This document shows positions 26,079 to 50,097 of a DNA stretch of 64,000 bases, piece after piece. The translations under genes and the position numbers were made by a program. The notes below the pieces were generated by a model that was not told the DNA's origin, ran no database searches, and saw only the letters and a list, made by a program, of their open reading frames with translations. Every line of letters starts with the position of its first letter. Position 1 is the first letter of the stretch. The DNA is from Thermoanaerobacterium sp. RBIITD (GTDB taxonomy: Bacteria > Bacillota > Thermoanaerobacteria > Thermoanaerobacterales > Thermoanaerobacteraceae), in NCBI RefSeq assembly GCF_900205865.1, contig NZ_LT906662.1, positions 2,679,411 to 2,743,410 of the forward strand, given 5' to 3'.

Positions 26079-26111
26079 CCTACCAGACGGTTACAGAAAG
26101 GAATGAGAATA

Positions 26112-26954: not shown

Positions 26955-26975
26955 TTTTAAAGGAGGAGATATATT

Positions 26976-28391: not shown

Positions 28392-28412
28392 ATAGAAAAG
28401 GAGAGTGCGGCA

Positions 28413-29879
28413 ATGGAAATTAAAAAAATACCAATTGAAGGTATAACATATGACCAGATAAAAATAGAGAAAATACCGGCAACTCCTGGATACAAGGAAA
28501 GGGATCCAGAGCTGGTACCATCAGAGAACAGGACTGTTGTTATAAACCCAAACAGAACATGTATGCCTCTGGGTGCTATGATTGCAACCTTGGGGATTCA
28601 CAAAGCAATTCCCTTAGTGCAGGGTGCTCAAGGTTGTACGACTTACGTACGTTATACTTTTTGCAGGGTATACAAAGAACCTGCCGTTATTGCAACATCT
28701 TCTTTCCATGAAGATGCGGCAGTTTTTGGGGGAAGAAAAAACCTTATTGAGGCTATCAGAAACCTTGTTCTCAGGTACAACCCTGAAATGATTGGTGTTA
28801 TAACTACGTGTTCCAGTGAAATAATGGGGGATGATATTGAAAATTTTATTAAGGCAGCACAAAAAAGGCTGGTTAGTGAAGTTGGAGAAGAAAAAGCATA
28901 TGGAATAAAAATCGTGCCGATTCATACCCCCAGTTTTGCAGGTTCTCATGTTAAAGGATATGACAATGCTTCCCAGGCATATTTACAGTATGTAGCTACG
29001 GAGAAAACCGGGATTAATAATAAAGTAAATATAATTCCAGGGATAATAACACCGGGTGATATACGAGAAATCAAGCATCTTCTTAAAGAAATGGGCGTGG
29101 AAGGCATAATACTATTTGACATTTCCGATACTCTTGATGCACCTTTACGTCCGCCTCAATCAATTCCTTATTACCCTAGAGGAGGTACAAAATTAGAGGA
29201 AATAGAAGATATGGCTAACTCTTTGGCTACCTTTGCACTGTGCAGAGATTCAGGAGGAAGCGGAGCAGAGTATTTAAAGAGCAAGTTTGACATACCATCA
29301 TTTTTAGGGCCCATACCTATTGGTGTCCACAATACGGATCTTTTTTTAAACAGGTTAAGTGAACTTACGGGAAAAGCCGTACCTGAAAGTATTCTCGATG
29401 AAAGGGGATGGCTGTTAGATTCGATGGCAGACACGTTCCATCACACAATGATGAAAAAGGTAGCAATCTTTGGCGATCCCGATGTAACGGTAGGAGTTAC
29501 GAGGTTTGTATGTGAATTGGGTATGGAACCGGTGGCTGTGTCGAGTGGTACCAAGAGTCCGACTTTTACACAGGAAATTGAGGAAATTGCAAAAGAATAT
29601 GAATGTTCTCCTAAGATAATGAACGGAAGCGATCTTTTTGAGTTTGAGGAATATATACGAACAAAGGATATTGATATTATCCTTGGAAATTCAAGAGGAG
29701 TGGACATATCAAAAGAGATGCAAGTTCCTTTGGTTCGTTTTGGTTTTCCCGTGTATGATAGGTTTGGCTATCAAAAGAGACCTATTGTTGGCTACAGAGG
29801 AGGAGAACTTTTGTTGGAGAATATCGTTAATTCTATCATCAACTATGAATATCCTGATGATAGAACTCAACAGCTGTAG
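28413..29879 (+). CDS. nifK: Nitrogenase beta chain (NifK-like)
   Basis: 488 residues. The P-cluster cysteines are Cys50 (NRTCMPLGAM), Cys75 (GAQGCTTYVR) and Cys133 (TTCSSEIMGDD). FHEDAAVFGG, a C-terminal domain with KVAIFGDPDVTVGVTRF and ILGNSRG, and the closing GYRGGELLLENIVNSI are typical of NifK. It carries half of the P-cluster and pairs with NifD. It begins 22 bases after nifD behind AGGAGAG. No anfG/vnfG lies between D and K. Confidence 0.92.
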   Translation: MEIKKIPIEGITYDQIKIEKIPATPGYKERDPELVPSENRTVVINPNRTCMPLGAMIATLGIHKAIPLVQGAQGCTTYVRYTFCRVYKEPAVIATSSFHEDAAVFGGRKNLIEAIRNLVLRYNPEMIGVITTCSSEIMGDDIENFIKAAQKRLVSEVGEEKAYGIKIVPIHTPSFAGSHVKGYDNASQAYLQYVATEKTGINNKVNIIPGIITPGDIREIKHLLKEMGVEGIILFDISDTLDAPLRPPQSIPYYPRGGTKLEEIEDMANSLATFALCRDSGGSGAEYLKSKFDIPSFLGPIPIGVHNTDLFLNRLSELTGKAVPESILDERGWLLDSMADTFHHTMMKKVAIFGDPDVTVGVTRFVCELGMEPVAVSSGTKSPTFTQEIEEIAKEYECSPKIMNGSDLFEFEEYIRTKDIDIILGNSRGVDISKEMQVPLVRFGFPVYDRFGYQKRPIVGYRGGELLLENIVNSIINYEYPDDRTQQL

Positions 29880-29983
29880 AAAAGTTTAACTGAAGGGTGG
29901 TTGTGGAATACATTGATTCCACAATCCTTTCTATAATAATTTTTTATTAATATTTTATTGATCGATTGGAGGTGAAATTGAGT

Positions 29984-31645
29984 ATGTCTGATTATCTTGT
30001 CGATGAAAGGAGAAAACATGTTTGTATAAAGGGATGGTCTCCTTTGTCTTTGCCAGAATGTGAAAAGCCGACTATTCCAGGTATAATGAGTGAGAGAAGT
30101 TGCGCTTATTATGGAGCACGGTGGGTGCTTGGGCAAATTAAGGATGCAATTCATCTTGTCCATGGGCCTGTAGGTTGTGCTTATTATGGGCAAGTGATAA
30201 GAGGTAAAACCTATCGTATTTTTTCTTCTGACCTTCAGGAAAAAGATATTATCTTTGGAGGAGAAAAAAAGCTTATAGAGGCTATATTAAATGCAGTAAG
30301 ACTTTTCCCAGAAGCGAAGGCTGTATTTGTATACACGACCTGTTCTGTGAGCCTGATCGGCGATGATGTTAACAGTGTATGTAAGAATGCTGAGTTAGTT
30401 GTTAAACGCCCTGTGATATGGGTTAATTGTCCCGGTTTTTGCGGGGTCAGCCAATCGGAAGGGCATAGAATTGCCTATGACATATTAATGGAACGTTTCG
30501 TAGGGACCAAGGTACTGGAAAGCCCGACTTCCTATGATATTAATATTATTGGAGAATACGATGTAAAAGGGGATCTACAGATAATTAAAACGTTACTTGA
30601 AAAAATTGGAGTAAGAGTTTTATGTACTTTTACAGGTGATGCCTCAATTGATAAAATGTCTTATTCTCATTATGCGAAGTTAAATGTTCTTCATTGCCGC
30701 AAAACCGGGTTTTATTTTGCTGAAAGAATGGAAAAAAAATATGGAATTCCATCAATGAAAGTTTCCTTCTTTGGAATGAAACAAACTTCAGAAGCTCTGC
30801 GTAAGATTGCTGTTTTTTTTGGCTTAGAGGAAAGGGCGGAGGCTGTAATAGAAGAAGAAATTGAAAAGGTTCGGAGAAGGATAGGTAAATTATACAAAAG
30901 AATAGAAGAAAAGTCGGTTGCTATGTATTTTGGCGGTTCAAGAATGGGTACTATGGTAAAAGCTTTTGAAGATTTAGGCATGGAAGTAATTATTACGGGT
31001 TCACAGTTTGGACGGCGGGAAGATTACGAAGAAGCTGCTAAAAATGTCAGTGATGGTACTTTGATTATTGATGATGCAAATGATATGGAAATCGAAGAGA
31101 TGTTGACAATTTATAAACCAGATTTGTTTGTTGGTGGTACAAAGGAAAAATACTTGTCACATAAATTAGGAGTCCCCTTTTTGGTATTTCCGCAGAATAC
31201 GAGTCCCTATGCTGGTTTTAAAGGATTTTGCAATTTTGCCGAGGATGTTTATAAAGCAATCTACAACCCTGTATGGAAATTCGTTTTTGGGAAAAGAAAG
31301 GAGAATAAGATCATAAAAATTGCTGTTGCTTCAAAGGATGGAATTATGATTAATGAGCATTTTGGGAAAGCAAGCCAGTTCTTAATTTATAAGCTTTTAG
31401 GCGATAGAGTAAGTTTAATGGAACTGAGAAAAACTAACAGCGGTATTTCAGGAGAATGTTGTGACGGAGAAGCTAAAGATCATTTAGATCAAATAGCAGA
31501 TCTTTTATTTGACTGCTCTATAGTTTACTGTGGTAAAGCAGGTCATTGTGCAAAAGAAAAATTAGAAGAAAGAGGAATTAAGGTTGTTATGGCGGAGGGA
31601 TCTATTGAAAAGGTGTTACATGACTTGGCAACAGAAGCAAAATGA
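29984..31645 (+). CDS. nifE: NifE fused to a NifX-type cofactor-binding domain
   Basis: 553 residues from ATG 29984 (GGAGGTG nine bases upstream; a TTG at 29966 is in frame but overlaps the ribosome site). Residues 1-440 are NifE: SERSCAYYGARWVLG, VHGPVGCAYYG, YTTCSVSLIGDD, and the LHCRKTGFYFAERM helix. Residues 443-553 form a NifX/NafY-like domain (IIKIAVASKDGIMINEHFGKA ... YCGKAGHCAKEKL), which in relatives binds NifB-co or FeMo-co. NifE normally works with NifN as a scaffold, but no nifN is visible. The protein could act as a homodimer or with another partner. Confidence 0.9.
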   Translation: MSDYLVDERRKHVCIKGWSPLSLPECEKPTIPGIMSERSCAYYGARWVLGQIKDAIHLVHGPVGCAYYGQVIRGKTYRIFSSDLQEKDIIFGGEKKLIEAILNAVRLFPEAKAVFVYTTCSVSLIGDDVNSVCKNAELVVKRPVIWVNCPGFCGVSQSEGHRIAYDILMERFVGTKVLESPTSYDINIIGEYDVKGDLQIIKTLLEKIGVRVLCTFTGDASIDKMSYSHYAKLNVLHCRKTGFYFAERMEKKYGIPSMKVSFFGMKQTSEALRKIAVFFGLEERAEAVIEEEIEKVRRRIGKLYKRIEEKSVAMYFGGSRMGTMVKAFEDLGMEVIITGSQFGRREDYEEAAKNVSDGTLIIDDANDMEIEEMLTIYKPDLFVGGTKEKYLSHKLGVPFLVFPQNTSPYAGFKGFCNFAEDVYKAIYNPVWKFVFGKRKENKIIKIAVASKDGIMINEHFGKASQFLIYKLLGDRVSLMELRKTNSGISGECCDGEAKDHLDQIADLLFDCSIVYCGKAGHCAKEKLEERGIKVVMAEGSIEKVLHDLATEAK

Positions 31646-31669
31646 TATCAGCGGTGAGAGGAATGATTT

Positions 31670-32803
31670 ATGAGAGATTTTTTTATAATTGATACTACTT
31701 TAAGAGATGGAGAACAAACCGCTGGAGTTGTTTTTTCGATGCCAGAAAAAGTTTTTATTGCTAAAATGCTTGACAGAATTGGAGTTCGATATATTGAAGC
31801 CGGCATCCCTGCAATGGGGGGAGAAGAAAAAGAATCTATATATGAGATATTAAATCTCGGATTGAAGGCAAAAATTCTTACATGGAATAGAGCCGTAATA
31901 AGTGATGTAAAAGCATCTATTGACTGTGGTGCAAAATATTTGCATATTTCCTCTCCTGTTTCTGATATTCACATAAGTTCTAAACTAAAAAAAGACAGGA
32001 GATGGGTTATAGATAATTTAAAAAGGGTCCTTCATTATGCACAAAAATTTAATTGTGAAATTTCTGTTGGTGCCGAAGATGCTTCACGAGCTGACAGAGC
32101 TTTTTTATATACTTTTGCCAAAATTGCAAAAGAGGAAGGGGCATCACGATTTCGTTATTCTGACACAGTTGGAGTATTAGAACCTTTTAGAACTTATGAA
32201 GAGGTTAAAAGACTTAGAGAAACTGTTGATATAGACATTGAAATACATGTTCATAACGATTTTGGTATGGCTACTGCTAATGCTCTTGCTGCTTTTAAAG
32301 CTGGAGCAAAATTTGTTAGTACGACTATAAATGGTCTTGGAGAGCGGGCAGGCAACGCTGCTTTTGAAGAGGTTATAATGGCAATGAAATATTTATACGG
32401 ACATGATTTAAAAATCAATACAGATTTATTGTATAGACTTTCACGTTATGTTGCTTTAGCGTCAAAAAGAAAAATACCGTCTGGCAAAGCGATTGTAGGA
32501 GGAGAAATTTTTAATTACGAAAAAGGTTTAGAGAATAATCTTGTTTATGATGAAATTTTTTTACCTGAAGAGATTGGTTTATCAACAAAATTGGTTATTG
32601 GTAAACATTCTGATATACATGCAATTGTCAGTAAATACCATAGTTTAGGGATAGAATTAACAGAAAGAGAAGCCGCCTTTCTTTTAAGATATATACGTAC
32701 ATGGGTTGTAAAAAACAAACGCAGTCTTACTGAGGAAGAGCTTTTGAATATTTATGAAGATAAAAAATATAAAAAGGGTATTGACATGTTAAATATACAA
32801 TAG
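31670..32803 (+). CDS. nifV: Homocitrate synthase
   Basis: 377 residues of the DRE-TIM metallolyase family: IIDTTLRDGEQTAGVVFS at the N-terminus, metal ligands in IEIHVHNDFGMATANALAA, and TTINGLGERAGNAAFEEV. It condenses acetyl-CoA and 2-oxoglutarate to homocitrate, the organic ligand of FeMo-co. It starts 24 bases after the nifE-X gene in the same operon. Isopropylmalate or citramalate synthase activity cannot be ruled out by sequence alone, but the position argues for nifV. Confidence 0.93.
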   Translation: MRDFFIIDTTLRDGEQTAGVVFSMPEKVFIAKMLDRIGVRYIEAGIPAMGGEEKESIYEILNLGLKAKILTWNRAVISDVKASIDCGAKYLHISSPVSDIHISSKLKKDRRWVIDNLKRVLHYAQKFNCEISVGAEDASRADRAFLYTFAKIAKEEGASRFRYSDTVGVLEPFRTYEEVKRLRETVDIDIEIHVHNDFGMATANALAAFKAGAKFVSTTINGLGERAGNAAFEEVIMAMKYLYGHDLKINTDLLYRLSRYVALASKRKIPSGKAIVGGEIFNYEKGLENNLVYDEIFLPEEIGLSTKLVIGKHSDIHAIVSKYHSLGIELTEREAAFLLRYIRTWVVKNKRSLTEEELLNIYEDKKYKKGIDMLNIQ

Positions 32804-33050: not shown

Positions 33051-33719
33051 CTGTTTCTATCAATAAAAGTAGCCATCATAGCTACTCTTATATCCTTTAT
33101 AGCTGGTATCTTTTTTTCCCGCCTGTTTTTTATAAAAAACTTTCCCGGAAAAGAAATCATTGAAGCCATCTTTTTTCTCCCAATGGTTTTACCCCCAACT
33201 GTTACGGGTTTTATTCTACTTATTCTTTTTGGTAAATATGGACCTTTAGGTTTTCTCATTAGGAAAATATTTAACAGTCAATTACTGTTTACCTGGTGGG
33301 TCGCTGTAATTGCTTCTTCTATAGTCGTATTTCCTTTAATGTACCAAAGTGCCAAAGCAGCTTTTGAAAGCGTAGATATAAAGCAGGAGCGGGCTGCTCG
33401 TATTTTAGGTGCAAACGAGTTGAGGGTTTTTTGCACTGTTACGATGTCTCTTGCTTGGCCTGGTATTCTATCGGGTATTGTTCTTTTCTTTGCAAGAGCT
33501 ATTGGTGAGTTTGGAGCAACATTGATGACTGCAGGTAATATTCCAGGCAAGACTCAAACAATTCCTATGGCAATTTATTTTGCAGTGGAAAGTGGGGATT
33601 ACAAAACTGCTGTCTACTTAGTTGTTGTGATTATCTTATTTTCCTTTGGATTGATTTTTTGGTTGAACTGGTTATCAAGAAAAAAAGTTTTATATTATAC
33701 AAAAAAAGAAAGACAATAA
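33051..33719 (+). CDS. modB: Molybdate ABC transporter permease, start region damaged
   Basis: ModB-type membrane protein. From about 33054 the frame reads FLSIKVAIIATLISFIAG, the normal first helix, and continues to the permease signature ARAIGEFGATLMTAGNIPGKT and an end at 33719. The first in-frame ATG is 33183, too late because it removes the first helix. No ATG, GTG or TTG precedes it in frame; the only candidate near the right place is CTG 33051. The sequence just upstream is a copy of the hairpin repeat, so the native start was probably lost when the repeat arrived. It may be weakly translated or dead. Confidence 0.75.
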   Translation: MFLSIKVAIIATLISFIAGIFFSRLFFIKNFPGKEIIEAIFFLPMVLPPTVTGFILLILFGKYGPLGFLIRKIFNSQLLFTWWVAVIASSIVVFPLMYQSAKAAFESVDIKQERAARILGANELRVFCTVTMSLAWPGILSGIVLFFARAIGEFGATLMTAGNIPGKTQTIPMAIYFAVESGDYKTAVYLVVVIILFSFGLIFWLNWLSRKKVLYYTKKERQ

Positions 33720-33772: not shown

Positions 33773-34501
33773 ATGAGTTTTTATAATAATTTAAAGTCTA
33801 AGTTTAGAAAAATCGTTGATGAAAATGGACTATTAAAAGAAAATGTAGAGGTTAAAGCCTGTATACTATCTCCTAAAGATGCCATTGGCGCTACAAAACG
33901 TACAGATTATGCCCTTTTAAAGGGTAAAGAAAGACTTATGCAGGCAGAATTTAAAGGTTCTTATGGACAGGCATTTACTGATTCATTAAATGATTTTCAT
34001 GGTTCTGTTGGAGAGATACTGGAACTTCCACTTAAAAACAATTATGAAAGAGCTATTTTTATTTCGTCTTTAAATGCAATTATGCGGCATCTGCGTTTGG
34101 CTGATCACACAGTACACTGCAAAAACAATGATTTAGAAAATTGTGCTCAAAAAATAGTCACTTTTATTATTGAAAAATACGGACAACCGCGTATATGCTT
34201 TGTAGGGCTGCAACCTGCGTTAGTAGAAGCCTGTGCCTCCAAATTTTCCGTTAAAGTGCTTGACCTGGATAAAGACAACATAGGTAAAGAAAAAAGCGGT
34301 GTTTTGATACTGGATGGAGAGAAAGATTATAAGGACGCAATAGAATGGTGCGATATAGCATTGGTAACAGGGAGTGTTATTGTTAATGGAACGGTTGAGA
34401 ATATTCTAAAGAATCAAAAACCCTTGATCTTTTTTGGGACAACGGCTGCCGGGACTGCTAAGTTAATGGGATGGGAAAGATTTTGCCCTTGTTCTTATTG
34501 A
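33773..34501 (+). CDS. DUF364 family protein (Rossmann-like, possible metal chelation)
   Basis: 242 residues. The N-terminal half has the DUF4213-like start with GATKRTDYALLKGKERLMQA and GSVGEILELPL; the C-terminal half has CFVGLQPALVEA, LVTGSVIVNGTVE and IFFGTTAAGTAKLMG, as in DUF364, which the domain literature links with heavy-metal chelation. It lies between modB and modC. Related genes often sit beside molybdate, tungstate or metallophore transporters. It may handle the imported metal in the cytoplasm. The biochemical role is unknown. Confidence 0.75.
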   Translation: MSFYNNLKSKFRKIVDENGLLKENVEVKACILSPKDAIGATKRTDYALLKGKERLMQAEFKGSYGQAFTDSLNDFHGSVGEILELPLKNNYERAIFISSLNAIMRHLRLADHTVHCKNNDLENCAQKIVTFIIEKYGQPRICFVGLQPALVEACASKFSVKVLDLDKDNIGKEKSGVLILDGEKDYKDAIEWCDIALVTGSVIVNGTVENILKNQKPLIFFGTTAAGTAKLMGWERFCPCSY

Positions 34502-34541: not shown

Positions 34542-35207
34542 ATGCTTAAAGCAAAATTTGTTAAAAAGCTTCCTGATTTTGTTCTTAAAGTTGACTTATT
34601 GGTTGATAAAGAAATTTTGGTTCTTGTTGGACCTTCAGGATCTGGTAAAACAACTGTTTTAGAATGTATTTCAGGTTTTCAAAAGCCGGATTGGGGAGAG
34701 ATAATATTAGGGGAAAAAATTCTTTTTTCTTCATCGAAGCGAATCAACCTTCCTTCATACAAACGGGGTATTGGATATATATTTCAGGAATATGCGCTTT
34801 TTAACCATTTAACAGTAAAAGATAATATTCTTTATGGAGTAAAAAATTTATTAAAAGAAGAAAAAGAAAAGCAGCTCAATGAAATACTTAAACAATTTGA
34901 TATATCTCATCTGGCTGAAAGATATCCAGTTCAGCTTTCAGGCGGAGAAAGACAGCGGGTAGCTATGGCAAGAACACTTATAACAAAGCCTCATTTGTTA
35001 TTGCTGGATGAACCCCTTTCAGCTATGGACAGGAAGCTAAGGGAAAGGCTGCGTAAAGAAATAAAAGAACTTCATGGACAGTGGAATATACCTTTTGTAT
35101 TGGTTACACACTGCCGATGTGAAGCAGAGCTTGGTGATAAAGTTTTTAAAGCTGAAAAAGGTGAAGACAAAGGAGAAACCATAATGCGGTTTTATCAAAG
35201 TGCTTGA
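34542..35207 (+). CDS. modC: Molybdate ABC transporter ATP-binding protein
   Basis: 221 residues. Walker A VGPSGSGKTT, Q-loop IFQEYALFNHLTV, signature LSGGERQRVAMAR, Walker B LLLLDEPLSAMD, and the switch His in LVTHCRCEAE. The protein ends soon after the nucleotide domain and lacks the C-terminal molybdate-sensing (TOBE) domain of longer ModC forms. It powers ModB. It begins 40 bases after the DUF364 gene behind AAAGGGTG. Confidence 0.88.
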   Translation: MLKAKFVKKLPDFVLKVDLLVDKEILVLVGPSGSGKTTVLECISGFQKPDWGEIILGEKILFSSSKRINLPSYKRGIGYIFQEYALFNHLTVKDNILYGVKNLLKEEKEKQLNEILKQFDISHLAERYPVQLSGGERQRVAMARTLITKPHLLLLDEPLSAMDRKLRERLRKEIKELHGQWNIPFVLVTHCRCEAELGDKVFKAEKGEDKGETIMRFYQSA

Positions 35208-35260
35208 TGGGCAATACGGTTGAAATATATTCTTTTTATTTATATTTAGGAGGTTCAAGA

Positions 35261-35683
35261 ATGGAAGTAAAAGAAGCAGGGAAAGAAGATATAAAGAAAT
35301 ATGCTTTTTATTACAAGAACTTTTTGAACTTGAAAAAGATTTTTCACCAGATTATGATAAGCAAAGGAATGAACTGGAAATAAGTCTTGATAATCTATAA
35401 AACGGGTATATATTTCTTTTGAAAGAAAATAAAAAGCTTCTTGGAATAGCTAATTTATTGATGACTGTCAATACTGTTATGGGGACAAAGGTTGTTATAT
35501 TGGAAGATTTTATAATAAAAAGAGAAGAAAGAAGAAAGGGAAAAGGTAAATTTTTCATGAATACCATTTTAAATTTTGTAAGAGAGAAAGATACTCAAGA
35601 ATTACTCCTGTGGTTGATAAAGACAATGTAAGAGCTCTCAAATTTTATAGTTGTCAAGGTTTTGTTAAATCAAACATAGAATG
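35261..35683 (+). pseudogene. Broken GNAT acetyltransferase
   Basis: ATG 35261 follows a good AGGAGG, but the frame breaks after about 12 codons. The following frame reads LLLQELFELEKDFSPDYDKQ, then a stop at 35398, then LLGIANLLMTVNTV and VVILEDFIIKREERRKGKGK (the acetyl-CoA loop). Another frameshift precedes the typical ending ITPVVDKDNVRALKFY. At least three lesions show a dead gene. The family is clear. Confidence 0.8.
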
Positions 35684-35721
35684 ATGACATTATTTTTTTA
35701 AAAATTAATAAAAATTTAAAG

Positions 35722-35781
35722 ATGACAAGAAAGGTAGAATTTTATGGAAAGGGTTGGTTGGGATATGAAAAATATGAATAA
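35722..35781 (+). repeat. Third displaced copy of the nifH start
   Basis: ATG 35722 reads MTRKVEFYGKGWLGYEKYE and then stops; compare nif[15 protein letters not shown]. About 35 bases match the nifH 5' end with few changes. Unlike the copy before modA, the upstream leader is not shared. The FecCD reading frame starts inside it in another frame. Confidence 0.75.
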
Positions 35782-36853
35782 GATTACTCTCAAAGCCTGT
35801 CGAAGGATTTTACTATCTAGTACCCATAACATTATAAACAAAAAAATAGAAAATTCGGTTATGGGTATTTTGGTAATATTGCTCATCGTTGTAATCTTTG
35901 TATCTCTAACCCTTGGACGATATACCATTCCACTGACACAGCTTATCACCATGTTAGTGTCTAAGCTTCTGGATTTCCCTGTAACATGGTCTAAGACAGT
36001 GGAAATAGTTTTGTTCAATGTGCGTATTCCTAGAATCTTTGCAGCTATACTTGTAGGAGGTGCTTTGTCAGCTTCAGGGGCTACCTATCAGGGACTTTTT
36101 AAGAATCCTATGGTATCCCCAGATATTCTTGGAGCCTCTGCTGGAGCCGGTTTTGGTGCAGCTATAGCAATTTTGATGTCCCTTGGACCAATTGGTATCC
36201 AGATTTCCGCATTTCTTTTTGGTTTGGGGGCTGTTGCCACTGCATATACAATGGCAACAATAATCAGTCGCAATAACAGTGCAATTTTAGTATTGGTATT
36301 AACAGGTATGGTTGTATCTACGATGTTTTCTTCTTTTACTTCTATGGTTAAATATGTAGCTGACCCTGAGAGCAAGTTGCCTGCTATTACTTTTTGGCTT
36401 ATGGGAGGTTTTTCTTCCATAAGTAAAAATGATATAGTAGTATTACTCATACCAATAGTTATTGGGTTAGTCCCTCTCATTCTGCTTCGATGGAGATTGA
36501 ATGTTATTTCCTTTGGTGATGAGGAAGCACAAGCGATGGGTATCGATACAAAGAAAATTCGTTTGATTTTTATCATTTCATCAACATTAATGACATCAGC
36601 ATCGGTTTCAGTCAGTGGTATGGTCGGGTGGATTGGTCTTGTTGTTCCACATATTGCTAGACTTATAGTGGGACCTAATTATAAAACATTGCTACCTGCT
36701 TCACTACTTATTGGCAGTACATTCCTACTTTTGGTAGATGATATAGCTCGAAATATTTGCACCGTTGAAATACCTTTGGGAGTATTGACTTCTCTCATTG
36801 GTGCCCCATTTTTTTTCTATCTATTGGCGAAAGGAAGGAGGTGCTGGGTATGA
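35744..36853 (+). CDS. FecCD/BtuC-type ABC transporter permease
   Basis: Up to 369 residues with about ten membrane helices. FNVRIPRIFAAILVGGALSASGATYQGLF, the glycine-rich MVSPDILGASAGAGFGAA, and GMVGWIGLVVPHIARLIVGPNYKTLLP (the coupling helix region) are signatures of the siderophore/B12/metal-chelate permeases. The start is uncertain: ATG 35744 lies within the nifH-start copy, and 35765 or 35774 are alternatives. It overlaps the ATPase gene by 4 bases (ATGA), so they are coupled. The cargo may be a molybdenum species, heme, B12 or a metallophore. Confidence 0.9.
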   Translation: MERVGWDMKNMNKITLKACRRILLSSTHNIINKKIENSVMGILVILLIVVIFVSLTLGRYTIPLTQLITMLVSKLLDFPVTWSKTVEIVLFNVRIPRIFAAILVGGALSASGATYQGLFKNPMVSPDILGASAGAGFGAAIAILMSLGPIGIQISAFLFGLGAVATAYTMATIISRNNSAILVLVLTGMVVSTMFSSFTSMVKYVADPESKLPAITFWLMGGFSSISKNDIVVLLIPIVIGLVPLILLRWRLNVISFGDEEAQAMGIDTKKIRLIFIISSTLMTSASVSVSGMVGWIGLVVPHIARLIVGPNYKTLLPASLLIGSTFLLLVDDIARNICTVEIPLGVLTSLIGAPFFFYLLAKGRRCWV

Positions 36854-37632
36854 AATTAGAAATTAAAAATGTATTTTGTGGGTATGGAACAAAAATTGTG
36901 GTTAAAGACTTTTCAATACAGGTAAGTTCAGGTGAAATTCTGTGTCTATTAGGACCAAATGGTGTAGGAAAAACAACATTATTCAAAACTATTCTGGGAT
37001 TTTTGAAACTACAAGGTGGAGAAATTGTATTAAACGGGGAAAATATAAAGTATTGGTCTAGAAAAAAACTGGCAAAAACCATCGGATATGTACCTCAAGC
37101 TCATACACCACCTTTTCCATTTTCTGTACTTGATGTAGTAGTTATGGGACGTACAGCTCATTTAGGGGTTTTTTCTTCGCCATCCAAAGAGGATGTAGCC
37201 ATTGCGGAGGAGGCCCTGGAAACTTTGGGGGTTTCTTTTCTAAAAGACAGAATTTATACTGAAATTAGCGGAGGTGAACGGCAAATGGTGCTTATTGCCA
37301 GGGCTATAACCCAGCAGCCGGATATTCTTGTGATGGATGAGCCTACCGCTAATTTAGACTTTGGCAACCAAATACGAGTACTTGAACAAATTAAGAGACT
37401 TGCCCAAAAGGGATTGGGGGTGATTATGACTTCTCACTTCCCAGATCATGCATTTTTATGCAGTACAAAAGTAGCCCTGATGCAGCGAAACAATGTATTT
37501 ACCGTGGGATACGCAGATGATGTGGTGACAGAAGAGAATTTGAGGTCAGCTTATGGAGTAAATGTGAAAATTACCTGCTTGAAGGACGTATGCGGAGAAG
37601 TTATTAAAGCCTGTGTGCCTATGCTTAGTTAA
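36850..37632 (+). CDS. FecE/BtuD-type ABC transporter ATP-binding protein
   Basis: 260 residues from ATG 36850. Walker A LLGPNGVGKTTLF, Q-loop YVPQAHTPPFPFSVLDVVVMGR, signature ISGGERQMVLIARAI, Walker B ILVMDEPTANLDFGNQ and switch His MTSHFPDHAF. PQAH..PFPFSVLDVVVMGRTAHLG is typical of ATPases that pair with FecCD permeases. It overlaps the permease stop codon. It provides energy for import of the unknown metal chelate. Confidence 0.92.
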   Translation: MKLEIKNVFCGYGTKIVVKDFSIQVSSGEILCLLGPNGVGKTTLFKTILGFLKLQGGEIVLNGENIKYWSRKKLAKTIGYVPQAHTPPFPFSVLDVVVMGRTAHLGVFSSPSKEDVAIAEEALETLGVSFLKDRIYTEISGGERQMVLIARAITQQPDILVMDEPTANLDFGNQIRVLEQIKRLAQKGLGVIMTSHFPDHAFLCSTKVALMQRNNVFTVGYADDVVTEENLRSAYGVNVKITCLKDVCGEVIKACVPMLS

Positions 37633-37753
37633 TATTTTAGAAAAAAGTCGAAGTATATGCTTTAAAGAAAATATTAATAATATACCTCCATTATAATCAC
37701 AAGATAATCACAAAATGATACATTATTAATATTTTAGGAGGAGTGAAATAAAC

Positions 37754-38878
37754 ATGTATAAAATAGCAAAAAGAAAAAACTTTATTTTATCAACAGTTAT
37801 TATTATATGTATAATTCTAACTGAAGCGTTTACCGGATGTGGAAATCAAAAAACTTTAAAAAGCAAAGAACAAGAAAAACAAACTACAAGAACTATAGTA
37901 GATATGGCAGGTAGAAAAGTAACAGTGCCTTTCCAGATTAAAAAAGTTTATTCAGTCAGCCCTATAGGAACCGAATTTATGTATACACTATCACCAGAAA
38001 AAATTGCAGGTTTAAATAATAAGATTTCAGAAGCCGAAAGCAAGTATTGCATAGACAGTTATAAGAAACTTCCTGTATTGAGTGGAAACTTCGGTCAGAA
38101 CAATAAAATGAATAGGGAAGAAATATTGAAGATAAAACCTGATGTAATACTTAATATGAATACTATAGACAGCTCTCTTATAGAAAATTCAGATAAAATA
38201 CAGAATGATATGGGTATTCCTGTAGTATGTGTAACAAATGATTTGGATAAAATGGACAAGGTCTATGAATTTATAGGGAATTTGACAGGAGATACCAGTA
38301 AAGCTAAGGAACTTGGGGATTATTGTAAAAAAACTTATACAGAAATTACAGAGATAGCTAAAAAAATACCTGAAGATAAAAGAGTCAAAGTATATTATGC
38401 AGAAGGAGAGGAAGGTTTACAGACAGATCCTAAAGGATCTCAGCATGCTCAATTACTGGATCTTATAGGGGCAATAAATGTTGCCCAAGTGCCAATAAAA
38501 TTTGGTTTTGGAAGAAGTGAAGTATCAATGGAACAGCTTCTTAAATGGAATCCTGAAACTATTTTGGTATGTATTGATCAGGGATTTGCAACTTCTGCAA
38601 ATAATCCTTACAAAGTAATAATGTCTGATCCTAATTGGAGTAGTTTAAGAGCAGTAAAGGATAAAAAAGTATATGTAATACCTTACGAACCATTTAATTG
38701 GTTCGACAGACCGCCATCAATAATGAGAATATTAGGAGCAAAATGGTTAGGAAATTTATTGTATCCAGACTATTTTAAGTATGATATGAAGGCTGAAGTT
38801 AAAGAATTCTATGATAAATTTTTGCATATAAAAATTACCGATCAACAGTATGAAGAAATTATGGCTAATGCAAAATAG
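37754..38878 (+). CDS. Substrate-binding lipoprotein of a metal-chelate importer
   Basis: 374 residues. Signal peptide with lipobox AFTGCG, then a class III (TroA/BtuF-like) fold: TIVDMAGRKVTVPFQIKKVY, ILKIKPDVILNM, a long linker helix (about 190-220), and SMEQLLKWNPETILVC. The end, NWFDRPPSIMRILGAKWLGNLL, is common in iron-chelate and molybdate (MolA-like) binding proteins. With the permease and ATPase just upstream it completes one importer. Its C-lobe also resembles the C-terminal domain of the radical SAM protein at 40665. Ligand unknown. Confidence 0.88.
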   Translation: MYKIAKRKNFILSTVIIICIILTEAFTGCGNQKTLKSKEQEKQTTRTIVDMAGRKVTVPFQIKKVYSVSPIGTEFMYTLSPEKIAGLNNKISEAESKYCIDSYKKLPVLSGNFGQNNKMNREEILKIKPDVILNMNTIDSSLIENSDKIQNDMGIPVVCVTNDLDKMDKVYEFIGNLTGDTSKAKELGDYCKKTYTEITEIAKKIPEDKRVKVYYAEGEEGLQTDPKGSQHAQLLDLIGAINVAQVPIKFGFGRSEVSMEQLLKWNPETILVCIDQGFATSANNPYKVIMSDPNWSSLRAVKDKKVYVIPYEPFNWFDRPPSIMRILGAKWLGNLLYPDYFKYDMKAEVKEFYDKFLHIKITDQQYEEIMANAK

Positions 38879-39002
38879 AACTTATTAATATAACGAAAGT
38901 ATTGAAGTTAAGGACTATATAATTAATATCTTAACTATATATTTTAACGTATTCTTATGTATTTAATAATTTAAAGTCCTGCGTTAAAATGTCAAGTACT
39001 TA

Positions 39003-39618
39003 AAAACAAGAAACACTGTAACATCCATGGAGCCAATCTCATCAATAGAATATTTTTCGAGGAAAAGTTCCATCATGGCATTACCGAAAGCAGAACTTTC
39101 AACCTCGGACTTAAAGGCACTTAAGAAATAGATTCTGCAAGAAATGTTGTTTCTCATGGGTCATGTTATGTACCAAGCGGTAACGCATTCTAGTCAACCT
39201 TTGAAAGGCAAGGAGCTGTTCCTGCATTACTACAGCATGTTGGAATACGTCCAAAGCGCAAACGGTCGGCAATAACCCATGCATCGACATCATCAGTCTT
39301 GTCAAGATAAGGGTAAGACTCCTTAAACTTATTAACAAGCGTAGCGTTAATAATATAAACCTTTGTCTGACGCTTGCTTAGTGTCTCATCCTCGTTTAAA
39401 AACATAGCAGGGTGAAAGCTGTAGACAGAAGTAGACTCCATTCCAATGCGGATTTCCTGGCAAGAATGTTTATCAGCATAAAAGATAACCTGATCCTGGA
39501 AAACTTGCACCAGAAGGATTGTTTGAACAGCAAACTTCTTTAGAGTATTACCTTCACTATCCATAATGCATGTTTTTAAATCATCAGAGCTGACGTCTAC
39601 ACCTATAAACAACTTCAT
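39003..39618 (-). pseudogene. Truncated, frameshifted IS110-family transposase
   Basis: Minus strand. The N-terminal RuvC-like domain reads MKLFIGVDVSSDDLKTC, IRIGMESTSVYSFH and DKTDDVDAWVIADRLRFG, then shifts frame into QHAVVMQEQLLAFQRLTRMRYRLVHNM and again into FKSEVESSAFGNAMMELF before it ends without the Tnp20 domain. The fragment is only distantly related to the intact IS110 at 23838. It is a dead remnant. Confidence 0.85.
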
Positions 39619-39639
39619 AGTAACTGACCTTCTTTCATT

Positions 39640-39860
39640 TTAGGATACAGGATATGGATCCTTCGGGGTGCCCCCAGAATTACTCGTTTAAGGACACCCT
39701 TGTGCATTAGAACTCACTCTGGTCCATGGGGCTGCCTGGAAGCTGCTACTTCCAGCATGGATTGTCAGAGGGAACAGCCTGCGGGGTTAGAAGTTTAAGA
39801 CGAGATTTAGGGATGCAGACTTTTTTAAGTAGTCAAAATTACAGCAGGATGCAGAATTTC
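39640..39860 (-). ncRNA. Fossil IS110 upstream RNA region
   Basis: The non-coding stretch upstream of the dead IS110 transposase is distinctly more GC-rich than its surroundings and has several possible stems (for example GGATCCTTCGGGGTGCC, GGGGCTGCCTGGAAGCTGC). This is the place expected for an IS110 bridge RNA. No expression is implied now that the transposase is broken. The rest of the gap to 40042 is plain AT-rich DNA. Confidence 0.35.
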
Positions 39861-40042
39861 CCCGTAATCTAATATAATTAATTATTCTTTGAACATCACG
39901 AAAAATTCAAGTCCCTGTTTTAAATGTTAGCTCTTATGCAGCCCATTTAATGACAACTATATTAAATTATCAAGGCACATGCTTTTTTGGCAATACAATA
40001 ACTTTAATTTATCAAATATATTATACGAGGGGATGATTAAGA

Positions 40043-40675
40043 ATGGAAATAAATATAGAGGAATTTGATGAAATTGCTCGCGAGGTATTTGCTCCAGTTT
40101 ATCCTGTTATTGCAAAGCAAATAAAATACAAAACAGGTATAACAACAGGTACATGTTTAGATATAGGAACTGGAGGAGGATATCTTGGAATCGAATTAGC
40201 TAAAATTACGGACTTGTCTGTAATTTTATTTGATAAATCTGAGGAAATGTTAAAAATTGCTGGTGATAATATTATAAAGAATGCTTTGGAAGCTAAAGTC
40301 AGAACTCAACTTGGAGATGTTCATAATATACCTTTTAAAGACCAGACAATTAATCTTGTAATAAGTAGAGGATCAATATTTTTTTGGCAGGACCTTCAAA
40401 AAGCCTTTAAGGAAATTCACAGGATACTTACACCAGAAGGAATGGCATATATTGGCGGTGGCTTTGGCACAGCAAAATTAAAAGAACAGATAATAGCAAA
40501 TATGAAAAGAATGAATAAAGAGTGGAAGGGAGGCATGATTCAGAGTTTTGGTAATGATCCAGTAGGAATGCTTAATGATCAATTAAGGCTTGCAGGAATT
40601 AAGAATTATGAAGTTATTATGGATGAATCAGGATTATGGTTGATTATGCGAGGAGGTAACAACATTGAAATGTGA
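40043..40675 (+). CDS. Class I SAM-dependent methyltransferase
   Basis: 210 residues. Motif I TCLDIGTGGGYLGIELAK, acidic loop LFDKSEEMLKIA, GDVHNIPFKDQTINLVISRG and the IHRILTPEGMAYIGGG post-motif define a UbiE-like methyltransferase. The substrate is unknown. The last bases overlap the start of the radical SAM gene, so the two are translationally coupled. The family often accompanies FecCD-type metal-chelate importers. It may modify the imported compound. Confidence 0.88.
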   Translation: MEINIEEFDEIAREVFAPVYPVIAKQIKYKTGITTGTCLDIGTGGGYLGIELAKITDLSVILFDKSEEMLKIAGDNIIKNALEAKVRTQLGDVHNIPFKDQTINLVISRGSIFFWQDLQKAFKEIHRILTPEGMAYIGGGFGTAKLKEQIIANMKRMNKEWKGGMIQSFGNDPVGMLNDQLRLAGIKNYEVIMDESGLWLIMRGGNNIEM

Positions 40676-42440
40676 AATTTGCGAAAGAGGCTGTGAAATT
40701 CCCGAAAATGGTACAGGAGCATGCGGTTTATATGAAAATAATGGACAAGTTATTGTAGAAAGATTCCCAAATAAGTATCTTATTACTTGTCCAATATCAA
40801 TAGAAACCATGCCTATGTTACATTTTTATATAGGGCAAAAATTTTTACAGATCAGTACTGTAGGATGTAATTTTCATTGTCCGGGTTGTATTTCTACAGT
40901 AATTGTAAAAGAAATGAATCATAAGAGCAAAGCCCTTAAGGAGTTATCTCCGATGGAAATAGTAAATGAAGCTATAAAAAATAATTGTATTGGTATTGCT
41001 TTTTTGATGAATGATCCGATTGCTTCTTTTTACACATTTATTAAGGTCGCAGAAGCTGCAAAAAAAAGAAAACTACTTGTAGGCTGTTCTTCTAACACAT
41101 ATTTTACTGAAGATGCTTTAAATAAAATTATTAAATACTTAGATTTTATTAATATAGGTGTAAAAGGGATGTCTGATGATATTTACCGTAAATGCGGTGG
41201 AAGTACAGTTAATCCTGTTATAAGGAATATGAAAATATTGCATGATAATGGAGTATTTATTGAGGTTTCCTGTGTATACAGTAACGAGAATAAGGAACAA
41301 GTAATAGAGCTTGCAAAAAAGATAAGCGAAATATCCAAAGATATACCTTTACAAATTATGCGTTTTATTCCACTGGAAGAAGCTGATTGTTCTTTAGAAC
41401 CCTCTATTAAAGCTTCAGAAGAGCTTATAAAACAATTAATGCAGTATGTTAACTATGTGTATCTTTTTAATTCGCCAGGAACTGATTTCTTAAACACATA
41501 TTGTCCTAAATGTGGGAAACTTATTTATAAAAGAGATTTTTACGGCCCTATGGGTGCAAAATTAATAAGTTCAGAATTAGTGGAAAAAGAAATTTGTCCA
41601 AGGTGTTCATTTAAATTAAACTTTAAAGGCTCTTTAAAAAATGTAAGATATCAGGAAGCTGATTTTCAAGGAGGATACCCCTTTACCAGAGCGCTGGAAA
41701 TAATGGAATCTATATTAATAACTATTGGTGTTAGTGATAAAGATAAAATAGTGAAGGTATGGGAAGATGTGCTTTGTAGTGGGAAATTAAAAAATCTCCA
41801 TATGGATATACAAAATTTAAATAGTTATATTGATACTATAAGAAATTTTGGAAAAATAGCTGGCTATAACAATGAAGCAGAAAATTTATCAAGTTATATG
41901 GAAGAAAGAATTTCTATAATTCAACGTGGATTAGCTAATGTAAAAAATAAGCCTAAAGTATATTATGCTATGGGTAAACCGCTTTTTTGCATCAAAGGTG
42001 GAAGAATGGAAAATCAATTGATAGAAGCAGCTGGAGGTATTAGTGTAAATAAAGAACTTGATTGCAGCGGAAGACCTGGAATGAGAATCTCAGTTGAACA
42101 ATTAAATAAATTAAATCCAGATATCATTTTCATTTCTGCATTTATATCTAATTCAGTTGAAGATTTCTATGATGAGTGTATTAAAGATGGAATAAATGTA
42201 GAAGCAGTAAAAAACAAAAGAATATATACACATATAGCACCGGGATTGGATTTTGGAAGTCCAAGATGGATATTGGGACTTATGTATATGGCCAATATTC
42301 TGCATCCTGATATATTTAATTTTAATGTAATAAAAGAAGTTGAACAATTCTATCAAAAATTTTATAATATAGATTTTACTTTAGCAAATTTAAACCGTTC
42401 TTTTGCCAAGCCAAGCAATAAATGGAAGCTGAATTCATAA
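40665..42440 (+). CDS. Radical SAM protein fused to a binding-protein-like domain
   Basis: 591 residues from TTG 40665 (AGGAGG upstream). The N-terminal cysteine-rich head (CEICERGCEIPENGTGACG, as in AmrS/PFL-activase-like proteins) is followed by the radical SAM motif CNFHCPGC (Cys68, Cys72, Cys75). A zinc-ribbon-like pair lies at Cys280/283 and Cys311/314. Residues about 425-575 look like the C-lobe of the neighbouring substrate-binding protein: KVYYAMGKPL, ISVEQLNKLNPDIIFIS, PRWILGLMYMANILHPD. There is no signal peptide, so this lobe is cytoplasmic. I infer a maturation or sensing step on the cargo of the adjacent importer. The chemistry is unknown. Confidence 0.85.
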   Translation: MKCEICERGCEIPENGTGACGLYENNGQVIVERFPNKYLITCPISIETMPMLHFYIGQKFLQISTVGCNFHCPGCISTVIVKEMNHKSKALKELSPMEIVNEAIKNNCIGIAFLMNDPIASFYTFIKVAEAAKKRKLLVGCSSNTYFTEDALNKIIKYLDFINIGVKGMSDDIYRKCGGSTVNPVIRNMKILHDNGVFIEVSCVYSNENKEQVIELAKKISEISKDIPLQIMRFIPLEEADCSLEPSIKASEELIKQLMQYVNYVYLFNSPGTDFLNTYCPKCGKLIYKRDFYGPMGAKLISSELVEKEICPRCSFKLNFKGSLKNVRYQEADFQGGYPFTRALEIMESILITIGVSDKDKIVKVWEDVLCSGKLKNLHMDIQNLNSYIDTIRNFGKIAGYNNEAENLSSYMEERISIIQRGLANVKNKPKVYYAMGKPLFCIKGGRMENQLIEAAGGISVNKELDCSGRPGMRISVEQLNKLNPDIIFISAFISNSVEDFYDECIKDGINVEAVKNKRIYTHIAPGLDFGSPRWILGLMYMANILHPDIFNFNVIKEVEQFYQKFYNIDFTLANLNRSFAKPSNKWKLNS

Positions 42441-46412: not shown

Positions 46413-49400
46413 GTTTTTAGCCTACCTATCAGGAATTGAAACTCATATTTTTCTATAATTTTTATTAATTCAGGCTTAGTTTTTAGCCTACCTATCAGGA
46501 ATTGAAACAAGTTCCATATTTTCCTTTCCCTTGTCCAGTCAAGCGTTTTTAGCCTACCTATCAGGAATTGAAACCCCCCTGCAAAACGAGATTCAGACCT
46601 TGTCTCTGTCGTTTTTAGCCTACCTATCAGGAATTGAAACAAAGGAATAGCGTCGCCTTTTTTATAGGCGACGCCTCCTGTTTTTAGCCTACCTATCAGG
46701 AATTGAAACAGAGATCAATGCCAGAAGGCGAGAATACCGTTTTTCTGTTTTTAGCCTACCTATCAGGAATTGAAACAGACATATTTCATATCAAGACAAA
46801 ATAAAGGCAATAAAGTTTTTAGCCTACCTATCAGGAATTGAAACGCAAATGTTCCATCTTCAAAATATTCCCAATCATTACGTTTTTAGCCTACCTATCA
46901 GGAATTGAAACGAGGAACGTATTTCATGCCTAATGCTTTACAGACATCCGTTTTTAGCCTACCTATCAGGAATTGAAACATTCTTCTAATGTAATGGAAG
47001 GGGACGGATTCTTTAAGTTTTTAGCCTACCTATCAGGAATTGAAACTTATAATCCGCCGCTATCTCTGCATCTGTCAAAGCTCGTTTTTAGCCTACCTAT
47101 CAGGAATTGAAACAGAAATAACTCTTTATATTTCTCCCCCTCTTCATCTTGTTTTTAGCCTACCTATCAGGAATTGAAACATAGTTTACATAGTAGCATG
47201 TATCTTTTTATTATTTTAGTTTTTAGCCTACCTATCAGGAATTGAAACTTGCCCCAGGGATAATCAAAATCTCTAAGCCAATCAGGTTTTTAGCCTACCT
47301 ATCAGGAATTGAAACTGGGAAAGATAAGCCGGTTTTTTGCACACAAAATGGGTTTTTAGCCTACCTATCAGGAATTGAAACTTTCTTTGTTGTCATTGCT
47401 GTTTGATAGTGATTTTACGTTTTTAGCCTACCTATCAGGAATTGAAACGATACAAGTGGAGAAAACACACAACAAACAGAAACACGTTTTTAGCCTACCT
47501 ATCAGGAATTGAAACCTGTGTTCGCTAGCACTTCTGTGACGTAGTGCTTTGTGTTTTTAGCCTACCTATCAGGAATTGAAACATTTTCCAGTTGTGTTTT
47601 CTACTGCATGTCCGTTTATGGTTTTTAGCCTACCTATCAGGAATTGAAACCCCCATATATCGCCATTGTCTTTGATTACAACCCATGTTTTTAGCCTACC
47701 TATCAGGAATTGAAACAAAAGATAATAAGTATTTTGTTTTTGAAATTTAATGGTTTTTAGCCTACCTATCAGGAATTGAAACATATAACGTTGAATTCTT
47801 TTTGCTTCCGCCTTGTCGTAGTTTTTAGCCTACCTATCAGGAATTGAAACGGATTTTTAAAAGTCATTATTTCTGCTAAATTTAAAACTGTTTTTAGCCT
47901 ACCTATCAGGAATTGAAACTTCTTTTGGGCTAATACATATAATTGCCTTGCTTCTTGTTTTTAGCCTACCTATCAGGAATTGAAACATCAAGTCGGACAG
48001 TATATCCGAGACGTTGACGTCGTTTTTAGCCTACCTATCAGGAATTGAAACTCTATGCCTAATTTCTTGGCTGTTTCATCATCAAAAGTTTTTAGCCTAC
48101 CTATCAGGAATTGAAACAATCTTTAAAACCAAGTATATCTTTTACTTTCATGGTTTTTAGCCTACCTATCAGGAATTGAAACACTATTTTGACTGGAATT
48201 AAATTAGATAACGCTTTTTCTGTTTTTAGCCTACCTATCAGGAATTGAAACTATTGAGTTGCCATTTAAATCACCTCAATAAATCATAGTTTTTAGCCTA
48301 CCTATCAGGAATTGAAACTGGCTTGAATTTTCTTGTCCTCCAGTTTCCAATATGTTTTTAGCCTACCTATCAGGAATTGAAACTAACTAATAATAATTGC
48401 TGGTGTTTGTGGGATAAAGGTTTTTAGCCTACCTATCAGGAATTGAAACTTTTTTTACTGACATGTACTTCCGCATCGCAGGCAATGGTTTTTAGCCTAC
48501 CTATCAGGAATTGAAACTAATGCTTTCATAGAAGGTAAGTTAGACGAAGAATTTTGTTTTTAGCCTACCTATCAGGAATTGAAACTTATAACAGGAATTG
48601 TTTTAAATGTTATTGATGGTAGTTTTTAGCCTACCTATCAGGAATTGAAACCACAAGAAAATTGAAGCGATGGAGGTGAAATAAAAGGTTTTTAGCCTAC
48701 CTATCAGGAATTGAAACGACATACACAAAAAAGATCTTGAGATGTATGAGAAATGTTTTTAGCCTACCTATCAGGAATTGAAACAGCGAAAGAGCATATT
48801 CATCTAAGAAATCTAAATCAGTTTTTAGCCTACCTATCAGGAATTGAAACGTTGTTATATCTGTGAGTAGGTATGGATTTGCACCAGTTTTTAGCCTACC
48901 TATCAGGAATTGAAACTGATAAGCCTTTTCTTGTGCCTCCTTTGATAATTCATCGTTTTTAGCCTACCTATCAGGAATTGAAACATTTTAGTGTGGAAGC
49001 CATCTAAAAAAGAAAGATTGGTTTTTAGCCTACCTATCAGGAATTGAAACTTATTATACGAGCCATAACTCATAGGTATCAAAAATTAGTTTTTAGCCTA
49101 CCTATCAGGAATTGAAACGATTAGGATATTGAGAAATGTCATATCCTGTCTTTTGTTTTTAGCCTACCTATCAGGAATTGAAACCAAATGTGGCATATCG
49201 GATTTCCTTCTTCATTGTATTTGTTTTTAGCCTACCTATCAGGAATTGAAACAAAAATATGAATTAGTAGAAAGTTATTAATTAACCTTGTTTTTAGCCT
49301 ACCTATCAGGAATTGAAACGAATTAGAGCAAATAATGGTTGCTCAAACTATATAAGGTTTTTAGCCTAACTATCAGGAATTGAAACACTAAAAAATTTAA

Positions 49401-49848
49401 AGATGATTTATCTTTCATATACACGGTTTTTAGCCTACCTATCAGGAATTGAAACTGCTTTAAAACTCTCGCTTTCATGTCATCACCTCGTGTTTTTAGC
49501 CTACCTATCAGGAATTGAAACAGACGAGACCGAAAAAGACCTTAACATTTTGAAATTTAGTTTTTAGCCTACCTATCAGGAATTGAAAGAATTCAAATAC
49601 AAGTGGATACAAAATCAAAGACCAACAAGTTTTTAGCCTACCTATGAGGAATTGAAAGCTTAGTGTTTTTAACGCTTTTATTGTTTCTATTGTCTCGTTT
49701 TTAGCCTACCTATCAGGAATTGAAACTAGATAATAATGTAGCTGTATTAATTTTATATAAAGAGTTTTTAGCCTACCTATCAGGAATTGAAACTGACTAA
49801 GGTGTGCCCTGTTTGTAACAAACAGTTTGGGTTTTTAGCCTACCTATT
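46413..49848 (+). CRISPR. CRISPR array 1, 52 repeats
   Basis: A 30-base repeat beginning GTTTTTAGCCTACCTATC and ending AGGAATTGAAAC recurs every 65-69 bases: 51 complete copies plus a final one truncated after 17 bases (49831). The 51 spacers are 35-39 bases. Most copies are identical. Variants appear only towards the right end (49357, 49560, 49629), consistent with a leader at the left and old spacers at the right. Repeats ending in GAAAC are processed by Cas6 in type I and III systems, but no cas6 is in this window. The adjoining cmr-type cassette would be its user. Confidence 0.99.
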
Positions 49849-50053: not shown

Positions 50054-50097
50054 TATCTGCAAGGACCTAACTGGTATAAAAGATTGGAGGAATTTTT

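Follow-up and report, generated by a model that had tools for sequence, protein, structure and literature searches.

The DNA analysed here, a window of 64,000 nucleotides from Thermoanaerobacterium sp. RBIITD, encodes a FecBCD-type importer (genes with matches to PF01032, PF00005, and PF01497 in one run, 35744-38878) followed by a class I S-adenosylmethionine (SAM)-dependent methyltransferase and a fusion of a radical SAM (rSAM) enzyme to a lobe of a solute-binding protein (SBP). On balance, this locus is probably an anaerobic unit for the acquisition of molybdenum or tungsten (Mo/W), in which import is followed by chemistry inside the cell; the link to these metals, taken separately, is very probable. 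An earlier note on this DNA had proposed that an imported metal complex or metallophore is recognized again by the fused lobe and processed internally. Its gene coordinates and its order of importer, methyltransferase, and fusion agree with the open reading frames and their Pfam matches, and its link between importer, enzyme, and metal stands, narrowed to Mo/W; the nif neighbourhood that it mentioned recurs beyond the window at only one of 34 loci (L046), and recognition of the same ligand by the lobe was not borne out. The main components of the system come from known families, except for a partner protein of ~385 residues in a sister system, here called type II.

The fusion is real, with PF04055 at residues 64-219 (1.6e-17) and PF01497 at residues 386-522 (1e-8, over the cut-off of that model). 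By sequence comparison its similarity to the neighbouring lipoprotein is well beyond chance: 60 of 197 BLASTP columns are identical (30%, residues 389-572, E 6e-16), and the shared KVYYA, S(V/M)EQL.K.NP, and ILG...LxPD end that had first drawn attention to it all fall inside this alignment. An AlphaFold model based on an alignment of 32 sequences (pLDDT 91.2, pTM 0.91) confidently predicts a two-domain architecture, in which an rSAM part (residues ~1-320) is followed by helices (337-399), a backbone helix (402-423), and the lobe (~431-575). Residues 31-267 match the fold of pyruvate formate-lyase activating enzyme 3c8f (Z 18.6, root mean square deviation 3.1, 223 aligned), and residues 343-572 match the SBP 4hn9 (Z 20.6, root mean square deviation 2.7, 219 aligned of 316), with many further SBPs at Z 17.6-18.8, including molybdate-binding HI1472 (3psa, Z 18.4). 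The cysteines C68/C72/C75 (CxxxCxxC) are invariant in 32 fusion sequences, and this motif, the PF04055 match, and the 3c8f fold place the protein in the radical SAM superfamily. Behind the rSAM domain the fusion keeps about two thirds of an SBP, short of a complete class III SBP with two lobes, a long helix, and a signal peptide; it begins MKC and has no evident signal sequence by eye (no predictor was run). A transporter-type binding lobe is thereby built into a radical enzyme. The nearest named rSAM model is AmmeMemoRadiSam (TIGR04337), at 126 bits over residues 1-319 against a cut-off of 220 bits, and no HemN/ChuW-type model is among the fusion's 19 NCBIfam and 3 Pfam matches at E <= 0.01.

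The fusion family spans clostridia, syntrophs, sulfate reducers, and methanogens. Among the window genome and 60 relatives, full-length fusions are encoded by three: the window genome, G009 (88% identical), and G051 (56%). A profile search of genome contigs found 34 loci with a three-row alignment, and none with a single-sequence query, in records titled, for example, Clostridium, Desulfosporosinus, Pelotomaculum, Syntrophomonas, Geobacter, Desulfobacter, Desulfosarcina, Methanolobus, and Methanosarcinaceae. Open reading frames gave 34 fusions for comparison, from the window, L035, L037, and 31 of the 34 profile-search loci (L070 being cut by a contig end); L071 (broken), L074 (cut by a contig end), and L076 (rSAM only) were excluded. 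In larger samples, matches at E <= 1e-60 occurred in 17 of 398 genomes from the window's phylum, in 4 of 198 from the phylum to which G071 belongs, and in 25 of 196 from that of G076; judged by coordinates, 6, 3, and 23 of these genomes, respectively, have full-length or nearly full-length fusions. Both domains are under purifying selection, with ratios of nonsynonymous to synonymous substitution (dN/dS) between the window genome and G009 of 0.143 (rSAM part) and 0.125 (lobe). At L154 (8690-12142, genome G792), the rSAM part and the SBP-lobe part match in two overlapping frames, and a second, nearly full fusion lies on the other strand.

Transporter and metal genes are frequent neighbours of the fusion; the earlier note had held that the functional link would fail if homologues lacked them, and on the counts that follow the link stands. 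In the 34 loci, which were read with up to ~10 kb of flank where the contig permits and are partly redundant (e.g. L058/L059, L063/L067, L057/L062, and L068/L073), the methyltransferase is present at 30, FecB at 27, FecCD at 23, and one or the other of these at 28. Further neighbours are DUF364 (13 loci, the window included), MoeA (7), a TonB receptor (7), ModA (6), formate dehydrogenase (FDH, 4), FmdE (4), and XdhC (3), and at least one Mo-linked gene occurs at 19 loci if DUF364 is counted, or 15 if it is not. No Fec gene was counted at L045, where the contig ends 977 bases past the fusion, at L063, a 4-kb contig, at L057 and L062, where an SsuA/NMT1-type importer takes the place of the Fec genes, at L077, where the FecB domain sits in a longer lipoprotein, or at L064. 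A TonB gene lies in the same-strand run at seven of the eight loci titled Geobacter, Desulfobacter, Desulfocarbo, Desulfobacterales, Desulfobacteraceae, or Deltaproteobacteria (two of the seven share a genome), which suggests a ligand larger or scarcer than the free oxyanion. The long lipoprotein of L077, a metagenome-assembled Methanosarcinaceae genome, has 691 residues (5156-7231), with a ModA domain (TIGR01256, 217.8 bits, cut-off 62.5) preceding FecB, and its gene is 2 bases upstream of the methyltransferase; among 111 genomes of one methanogen family such a lipoprotein was found only in its own genome, and so it is a single case. BioB-like rSAM proteins of one cluster (Pfam scan on the L072 member only) are encoded near or directly before the fusion at L045 (8896-9759), L060 (4202-5257), L072 (4005-5018), and L047 (240-941).

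Regulation also points to Mo/W. The molybdenum cofactor (Moco)/tungsten riboswitch RF01055 heads the fusion (type I) operon in ten of 37 loci (the 34 plus L098-L100), namely L035, L045, L056, L058, L059, L060, L075, L098, L099, and L100, although L058 and L059 are from one species and L099 and L100 from one genome. At L035, modA-modB-DUF364-modC-fecCD-fecE-fecB-methyltransferase-fusion follow the riboswitch on one strand; at L045, a BioB-like gene and then the fusion follow it; at L075, it lies at locus position ~6038-6157, directly before DUF364-TonB-methyltransferase-fusion, as placed by mapping genome-scan coordinates through the DUF364 match, which agrees with the L075 gene. Moco RNAs are also near the fusion at L036 (the region of L037), L051, L053, and L072, where they head other genes. 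Fifteen of 22 carrier genomes have Moco RNAs (133 matches summed, two of them under the cut-off), and G009 has three in its whole genome, all of them at the loci of type I and type II. In a control of 50 loci, from which seven had been removed as duplicates or unscanned, 20 of 96 operon heads from the system's gene families had a Moco RNA no more than 450 bases away, versus 4 of 241 other heads. These four were the BioB-like gene directly before the fusion in L045, the gene that opens the FDH run in L053, a molybdopterin oxidoreductase in L111, and a 186-residue protein gene in L109. No cobalamin riboswitch (RF00174) was found at gathering score in any scanned locus.

The strongest argument that ties the rSAM enzyme to the importer and to Mo/W is independent recurrence in the type II system. 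In the sample of 398 genomes, 13 matches at E <= 1e-60 covered the rSAM part only; with L038 from G009, they make up a set of 14 unfused type II rSAMs. A quick tree of 67 rSAM rows, with long branches flagged, divides them into 36 fused sequences (branch support by SH-aLRT 100), 14 of type II (92), and 17 that are AmmeMemo-like (100). AmmeMemoRadiSam, the nearest named family, is on a separate branch and has other neighbours: at three AmmeMemo-like loci (L039, L040, and L042), no match to FecB, FecCD, Mod, or DUF364 adjoins. The two type II proteins tested score 173 and 158 bits with TIGR04337, under the same cut-off as the fusion. Type II rSAM genes adjoin Fec genes at 13 of 14 loci, all except L106, and RF01055 heads 11 of the 14 operons, L103 and L108 being cut by contig ends and L113 having none. 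The ~385-residue partner is present at 12 of the 14 loci; it is divergent in L112, and the contig ends in L105. This family (IDVREWQT...YPGD...), found at L038 (10788-11942), L103, L104, L106-L112, L114, and L115, mostly under Moco riboswitches, had no match above cut-off in Pfam (4 proteins tested) or NCBIfam (3 tested), and its best profile match in the PDB (E 0.0023, an RNA-binding protein, 72 positions) was judged to be chance. That it might be a detached SBP lobe was rejected after a profile comparison with the fusion gave a probability of 0.4. Both DUF364 and this partner, families without assigned function, gain a stronger Mo/W context. At L159 (3295-5073), a molybdopterin-binding oxidoreductase domain and a tetrapyrrole methylase form one protein, encoded within a 20-kb stretch that also contains a type II locus.

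The fused lobe is, by phylogeny, of one old origin. In a tree of 33 fusion lobes and 44 FecB lobes, from which near-duplicates and short rows were left out, the fusion lobes make up one side of a single branch (SH-aLRT 99.8), which rules out a recent copy of the neighbouring lipoprotein. Scaffold residues are common to the fusion lobes and FecB (Y433, Y434, G457, G458, P485, and G538), but positions conserved in FecB have different, nearly fixed residues in the fusions: glutamate (64% of FecB rows) is replaced by M436, histidine (66%) by E449, tryptophan (95%) by F530, and arginine (60%) by W535. Since these residues are nearly fixed, the lobe is kept for a specific purpose; its conserved loops are at 433-449, 466-473, 489-495, and 526-535. 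The claim that it recognizes the same imported ligand a second time does not fit a separate old clade with residues of its own; the lobe probably does not bind a ligand the way FecB does, and may serve to hold a ligand that has been modified or to close off the active site of the radical SAM domain.

The FecB-FecCD-FecE importer, joined by a TonB receptor in Gram-negative bacteria, would bring in a ligand that carries Mo or W or serves to fetch it. In the cytoplasm, the methyltransferase and the fusion would modify the ligand and make the metal usable for the molybdenum or tungsten cofactor (Moco/Tuco) or for the nitrogenase cofactor, with the SBP lobe holding the ligand, or an altered form of it, over the radical SAM barrel. 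We infer that what is imported is a complex of Mo or W, that this complex is bound by the lobe, and that the reaction dismantles or modifies it, so that a metal complex would be chemically processed inside the cell; most likely, by analogy with ChuW/HmuW for heme, the metal would be freed or handed on there. More generally, and tentatively, strict anaerobes among bacteria and methanogens may possess an oxygen-independent group-6 metallophore system, in which a small Mo/W molecule imported by FecBCD(-TonB), under Moco-riboswitch control in many bacteria, is made or unmade by one of two rSAM modules: type I, in which the rSAM is fused to an SBP lobe that it captured and is accompanied by the methyltransferase, or type II, a free rSAM plus the ~385-residue protein. 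Transporters of free molybdate are known, but we know of no organic Mo/W ligand that strict anaerobes make for uptake. If the proposal is true, this would be the first molybdophore or tungstophore handled by a radical SAM enzyme, and the lobe a binding protein recruited into an enzyme. This riboswitch-marked unit of enzyme plus importer, which occurs in syntrophs, sulfate reducers, and Geobacter-like bacteria, and without the riboswitch in methanogens, makes it testable how strict anaerobes in sulfidic settings are supplied with scarce Mo/W.

Known systems resemble parts of this one. As in anaerobic heme uptake by HutW/HmuW, an importer operon is combined with a cytoplasmic rSAM enzyme that dismantles an imported metal complex (PMC10404700, PMC10035031). 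ChuW belongs to the same group. Those enzymes are class C radical SAM methyltransferases that act on heme, whereas the fusion is PflA/AmmeMemo-like, with an SBP lobe, a separate class I methyltransferase, and a Mo/W context. MolBCA (HI1470-1472) is a FecBCD-type molybdate importer; its SBP, 3psa, is one of the structures that the fusion lobe matches best in fold, although many other SBPs match equally well. To our knowledge, MolBCA has no rSAM or methyltransferase partner. The operons of many relatives of the locus share RF01055 at their head with the Moco riboswitch regulon, for which the consulted part of one paper names moa, mod, moe, mog, and Mo enzyme genes (PMC2408646); no word beginning with radical, TonB, or cobalamin occurs in its main text. 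TonB-type channels of Pelobacter carbinolicus near periplasmic metal-binding or molybdopterin-binding proteins, or near cobalamin or molybdopterin riboswitches, have been regarded as possible metal importers in a paper whose available part describes no rSAM-SBP fusion (PMC3543383). As far as their text was available, PMC2408646, PMC2954201, PMC3543383, and PMC11423573 concern single parts of the system and never the whole combination. A literature search with most subscription journals and bioRxiv outside its coverage found no account that joins rSAM, FecBCD, and the Moco riboswitch, and none that describes either the fusion of an rSAM enzyme to an SBP lobe or the type II operon.

Several observations weigh against acquisition by import and internal processing. 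Because FecB-conserved residues are missing from the lobe, binding of the same ligand is doubtful on sequence grounds. At 27 of the 37 type I loci, the operon head lacks a Moco RNA. Seven of the 22 carrier genomes, among them that of the window, are without any Moco RNA and so say nothing on such regulation; at gathering score, RF01055 was absent from the window and from its whole genome. No counted Mo-linked gene or Moco RNA is in the flank of 14 of the 34 loci, although L077, one of these, has the ModA domain. L064 is a true exception with no importer within flanks of 3.7 and 10 kb. At L044, L150, L057, and L062, the fusion and methyltransferase lie by a ModABC or SsuA-type importer with no FecBCD adjoining: the order at L044 is fusion-methyltransferase-ModABC, and at L150 a ModA-ModB-WtpC-like set is directly ahead of the methyltransferase and fusion, without FecBCD in the neighbourhood examined. 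The window operon itself has lost modA and the start of modB and is split by an insertion sequence remnant.

The main rival explanation is biosynthesis. The methyltransferase and the fusion, together with the ~385-residue protein in type II, would make a Mo/W chelator that is exported and reimported loaded by FecBCD, with the lobe as a scaffold for the growing ligand. This is rather unlikely, although Moco-riboswitch control suits a response to scarcity and the soluble enzymes adjoin ModABC alone in L044 and L150. The type II locus L106 has a MATE-type exporter behind the rSAM and its partner, but this is the only locus in which an exporter was identified, not every neighbour having been annotated; genes for assembly of the peptide or polyketide type were not noticed in the neighbourhoods read, though no search was aimed at them, and an importer-type binding lobe in the fusion fits handling on the uptake side at least equally. 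In L106 (9167-13813), a Moco RNA is followed in turn by the genes for the type II rSAM, its partner, the MATE exporter, and a binding protein resembling ModA, a possible case of chelator export. Improbable, though consistent with Moco-riboswitch control and with MoeA, XdhC, and FDH near some loci, is the salvage of a molybdopterin-type or other pterin or tetrapyrrole cofactor, imported whole or as a fragment and remodelled by the rSAM and methyltransferase. Molybdopterin is labile outside proteins, no scanned locus has a cobalamin riboswitch, and ModABC as an alternative partner indicates metal over pterin. For DUF364, the available part of a structure paper argues for flavin- or pterin-like ligands, inferred from genomic context and the shape of a cleft (PMC2954201), which would suit such salvage.

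The PflA-type fold of the rSAM part and FDH genes near 4 of the 34 loci would fit a PflA-like activase or maturase of a Mo/W enzyme, with transporters that are merely co-regulated, but the fused SBP lobe and the adjoining FecB or FecCD at 28 loci make this decidedly improbable; no Mo enzyme is constant and FDH is in the same-strand run at none of the 34, while no search for glycyl radical enzymes was made. Salvage of an iron siderophore, heme, or corrinoid without any special tie to Mo/W is highly improbable. Importers of siderophores, heme, and B12 make up the FecBCD family, but operons of type II (11 of 14) and of type I (10 of 37) have a Moco RNA at their head, and the ModA-FecB lipoprotein and the DUF364 and Mod neighbours likewise point elsewhere. 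A corrinoid or heme ligand was considered, because BtuC and corrinoid ATPase models lead for the permease and the ATPase, and was set aside as first choice for want of a cobalamin riboswitch and the presence of Moco RNAs instead; BtuC and BtuF models score far under their cut-offs, and with no RF00174 in the scanned loci the importer does not qualify as BtuCDF.

The features of the window locus are given in Table 1. Beyond what the earlier note had described, DUF364 and the ModC-type ATPase upstream are parts of the operon, since both are members of it at L035 in the relative G009, whose operon is intact, and the ~1.06-kb insert contains the IS110 remnant. DNA homology to L035 begins at 33055. 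The ModB-type frame, whose first start codon is at 33183, is 77% identical to the L035 ModB. The FecCD permease domain is whole, but its first ~33 residues are unlike those of the relative, after an insertion or replacement at 35223-35838. None of the frames for FecCD, FecE, FecB, the methyltransferase, and the fusion is interrupted, and all are under constraint (dN/dS 0.13-0.22); the fusion gene starts 11 bases ahead of the end of the methyltransferase gene, with which it overlaps. The window copy may still be expressed, although the insert cuts off the methyltransferase-fusion pair from the upstream genes and makes its expression uncertain.

Table 1. Features of the molybdenum/tungsten-linked locus in the window.
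Feature	Coordinates	Strand	Remarks
ModB-type permease gene without start	33051..33719	+	relative's ModB residues 5-226 align from 33051
DUF364 (PF04016) protein	33773..34501	+	in operon as seen in relative G009
ModC-type ATP-binding cassette (ABC) ATPase	34542..35207	+	best NCBIfam modC, 211 bits, under its cut-off
FecCD-type permease	35744..36853	+	PF01032, 287.7 bits
FecE-type ABC ATPase	36841..37632	+	PF00005, 114 bits
FecB-type lipoprotein (class III SBP)	37754..38878	+	PF01497, 71.2 bits
Insert absent from relative's operon	38969..40025	none	~1.06 kb, contains IS110 transposase remnant
IS110 transposase remnant	39190-39618	minus	inside insert 38969-40025; separates fecB from methyltransferase
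Class I SAM-dependent methyltransferase	40043..40675	+	usual fusion partner (30/34 loci)
rSAM-SBP lobe fusion, 591 residues	40665..42440	+	PF04055 + PF01497

The nif genes that the earlier note had placed beside the locus are present at 22879-32803, as nifH, an IS110 transposase, a short nifB, nifD, nifK-like, nifE-like, and nifV-like genes. The nifB product has 292 residues and scores slightly under its cut-off, the nifD product scores above the cut-off of the alternative-nitrogenase alpha subfamily, the nifE-like product has 559 residues, and none of the proteins scanned in this region was best matched by nifN. Among the 34 loci, nif-like genes are near the fusion only in the window and at L046 (6193-9902) of Desulfosporosinus fructosivorans, where NifD-, NifK-, and NifH-like genes lie between the methyltransferase and the fusion. 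On the other side of the locus, a CRISPR array with 51 repeat matches is followed by type III genes (Cmr1-like and Csx11) at 46413-54984.

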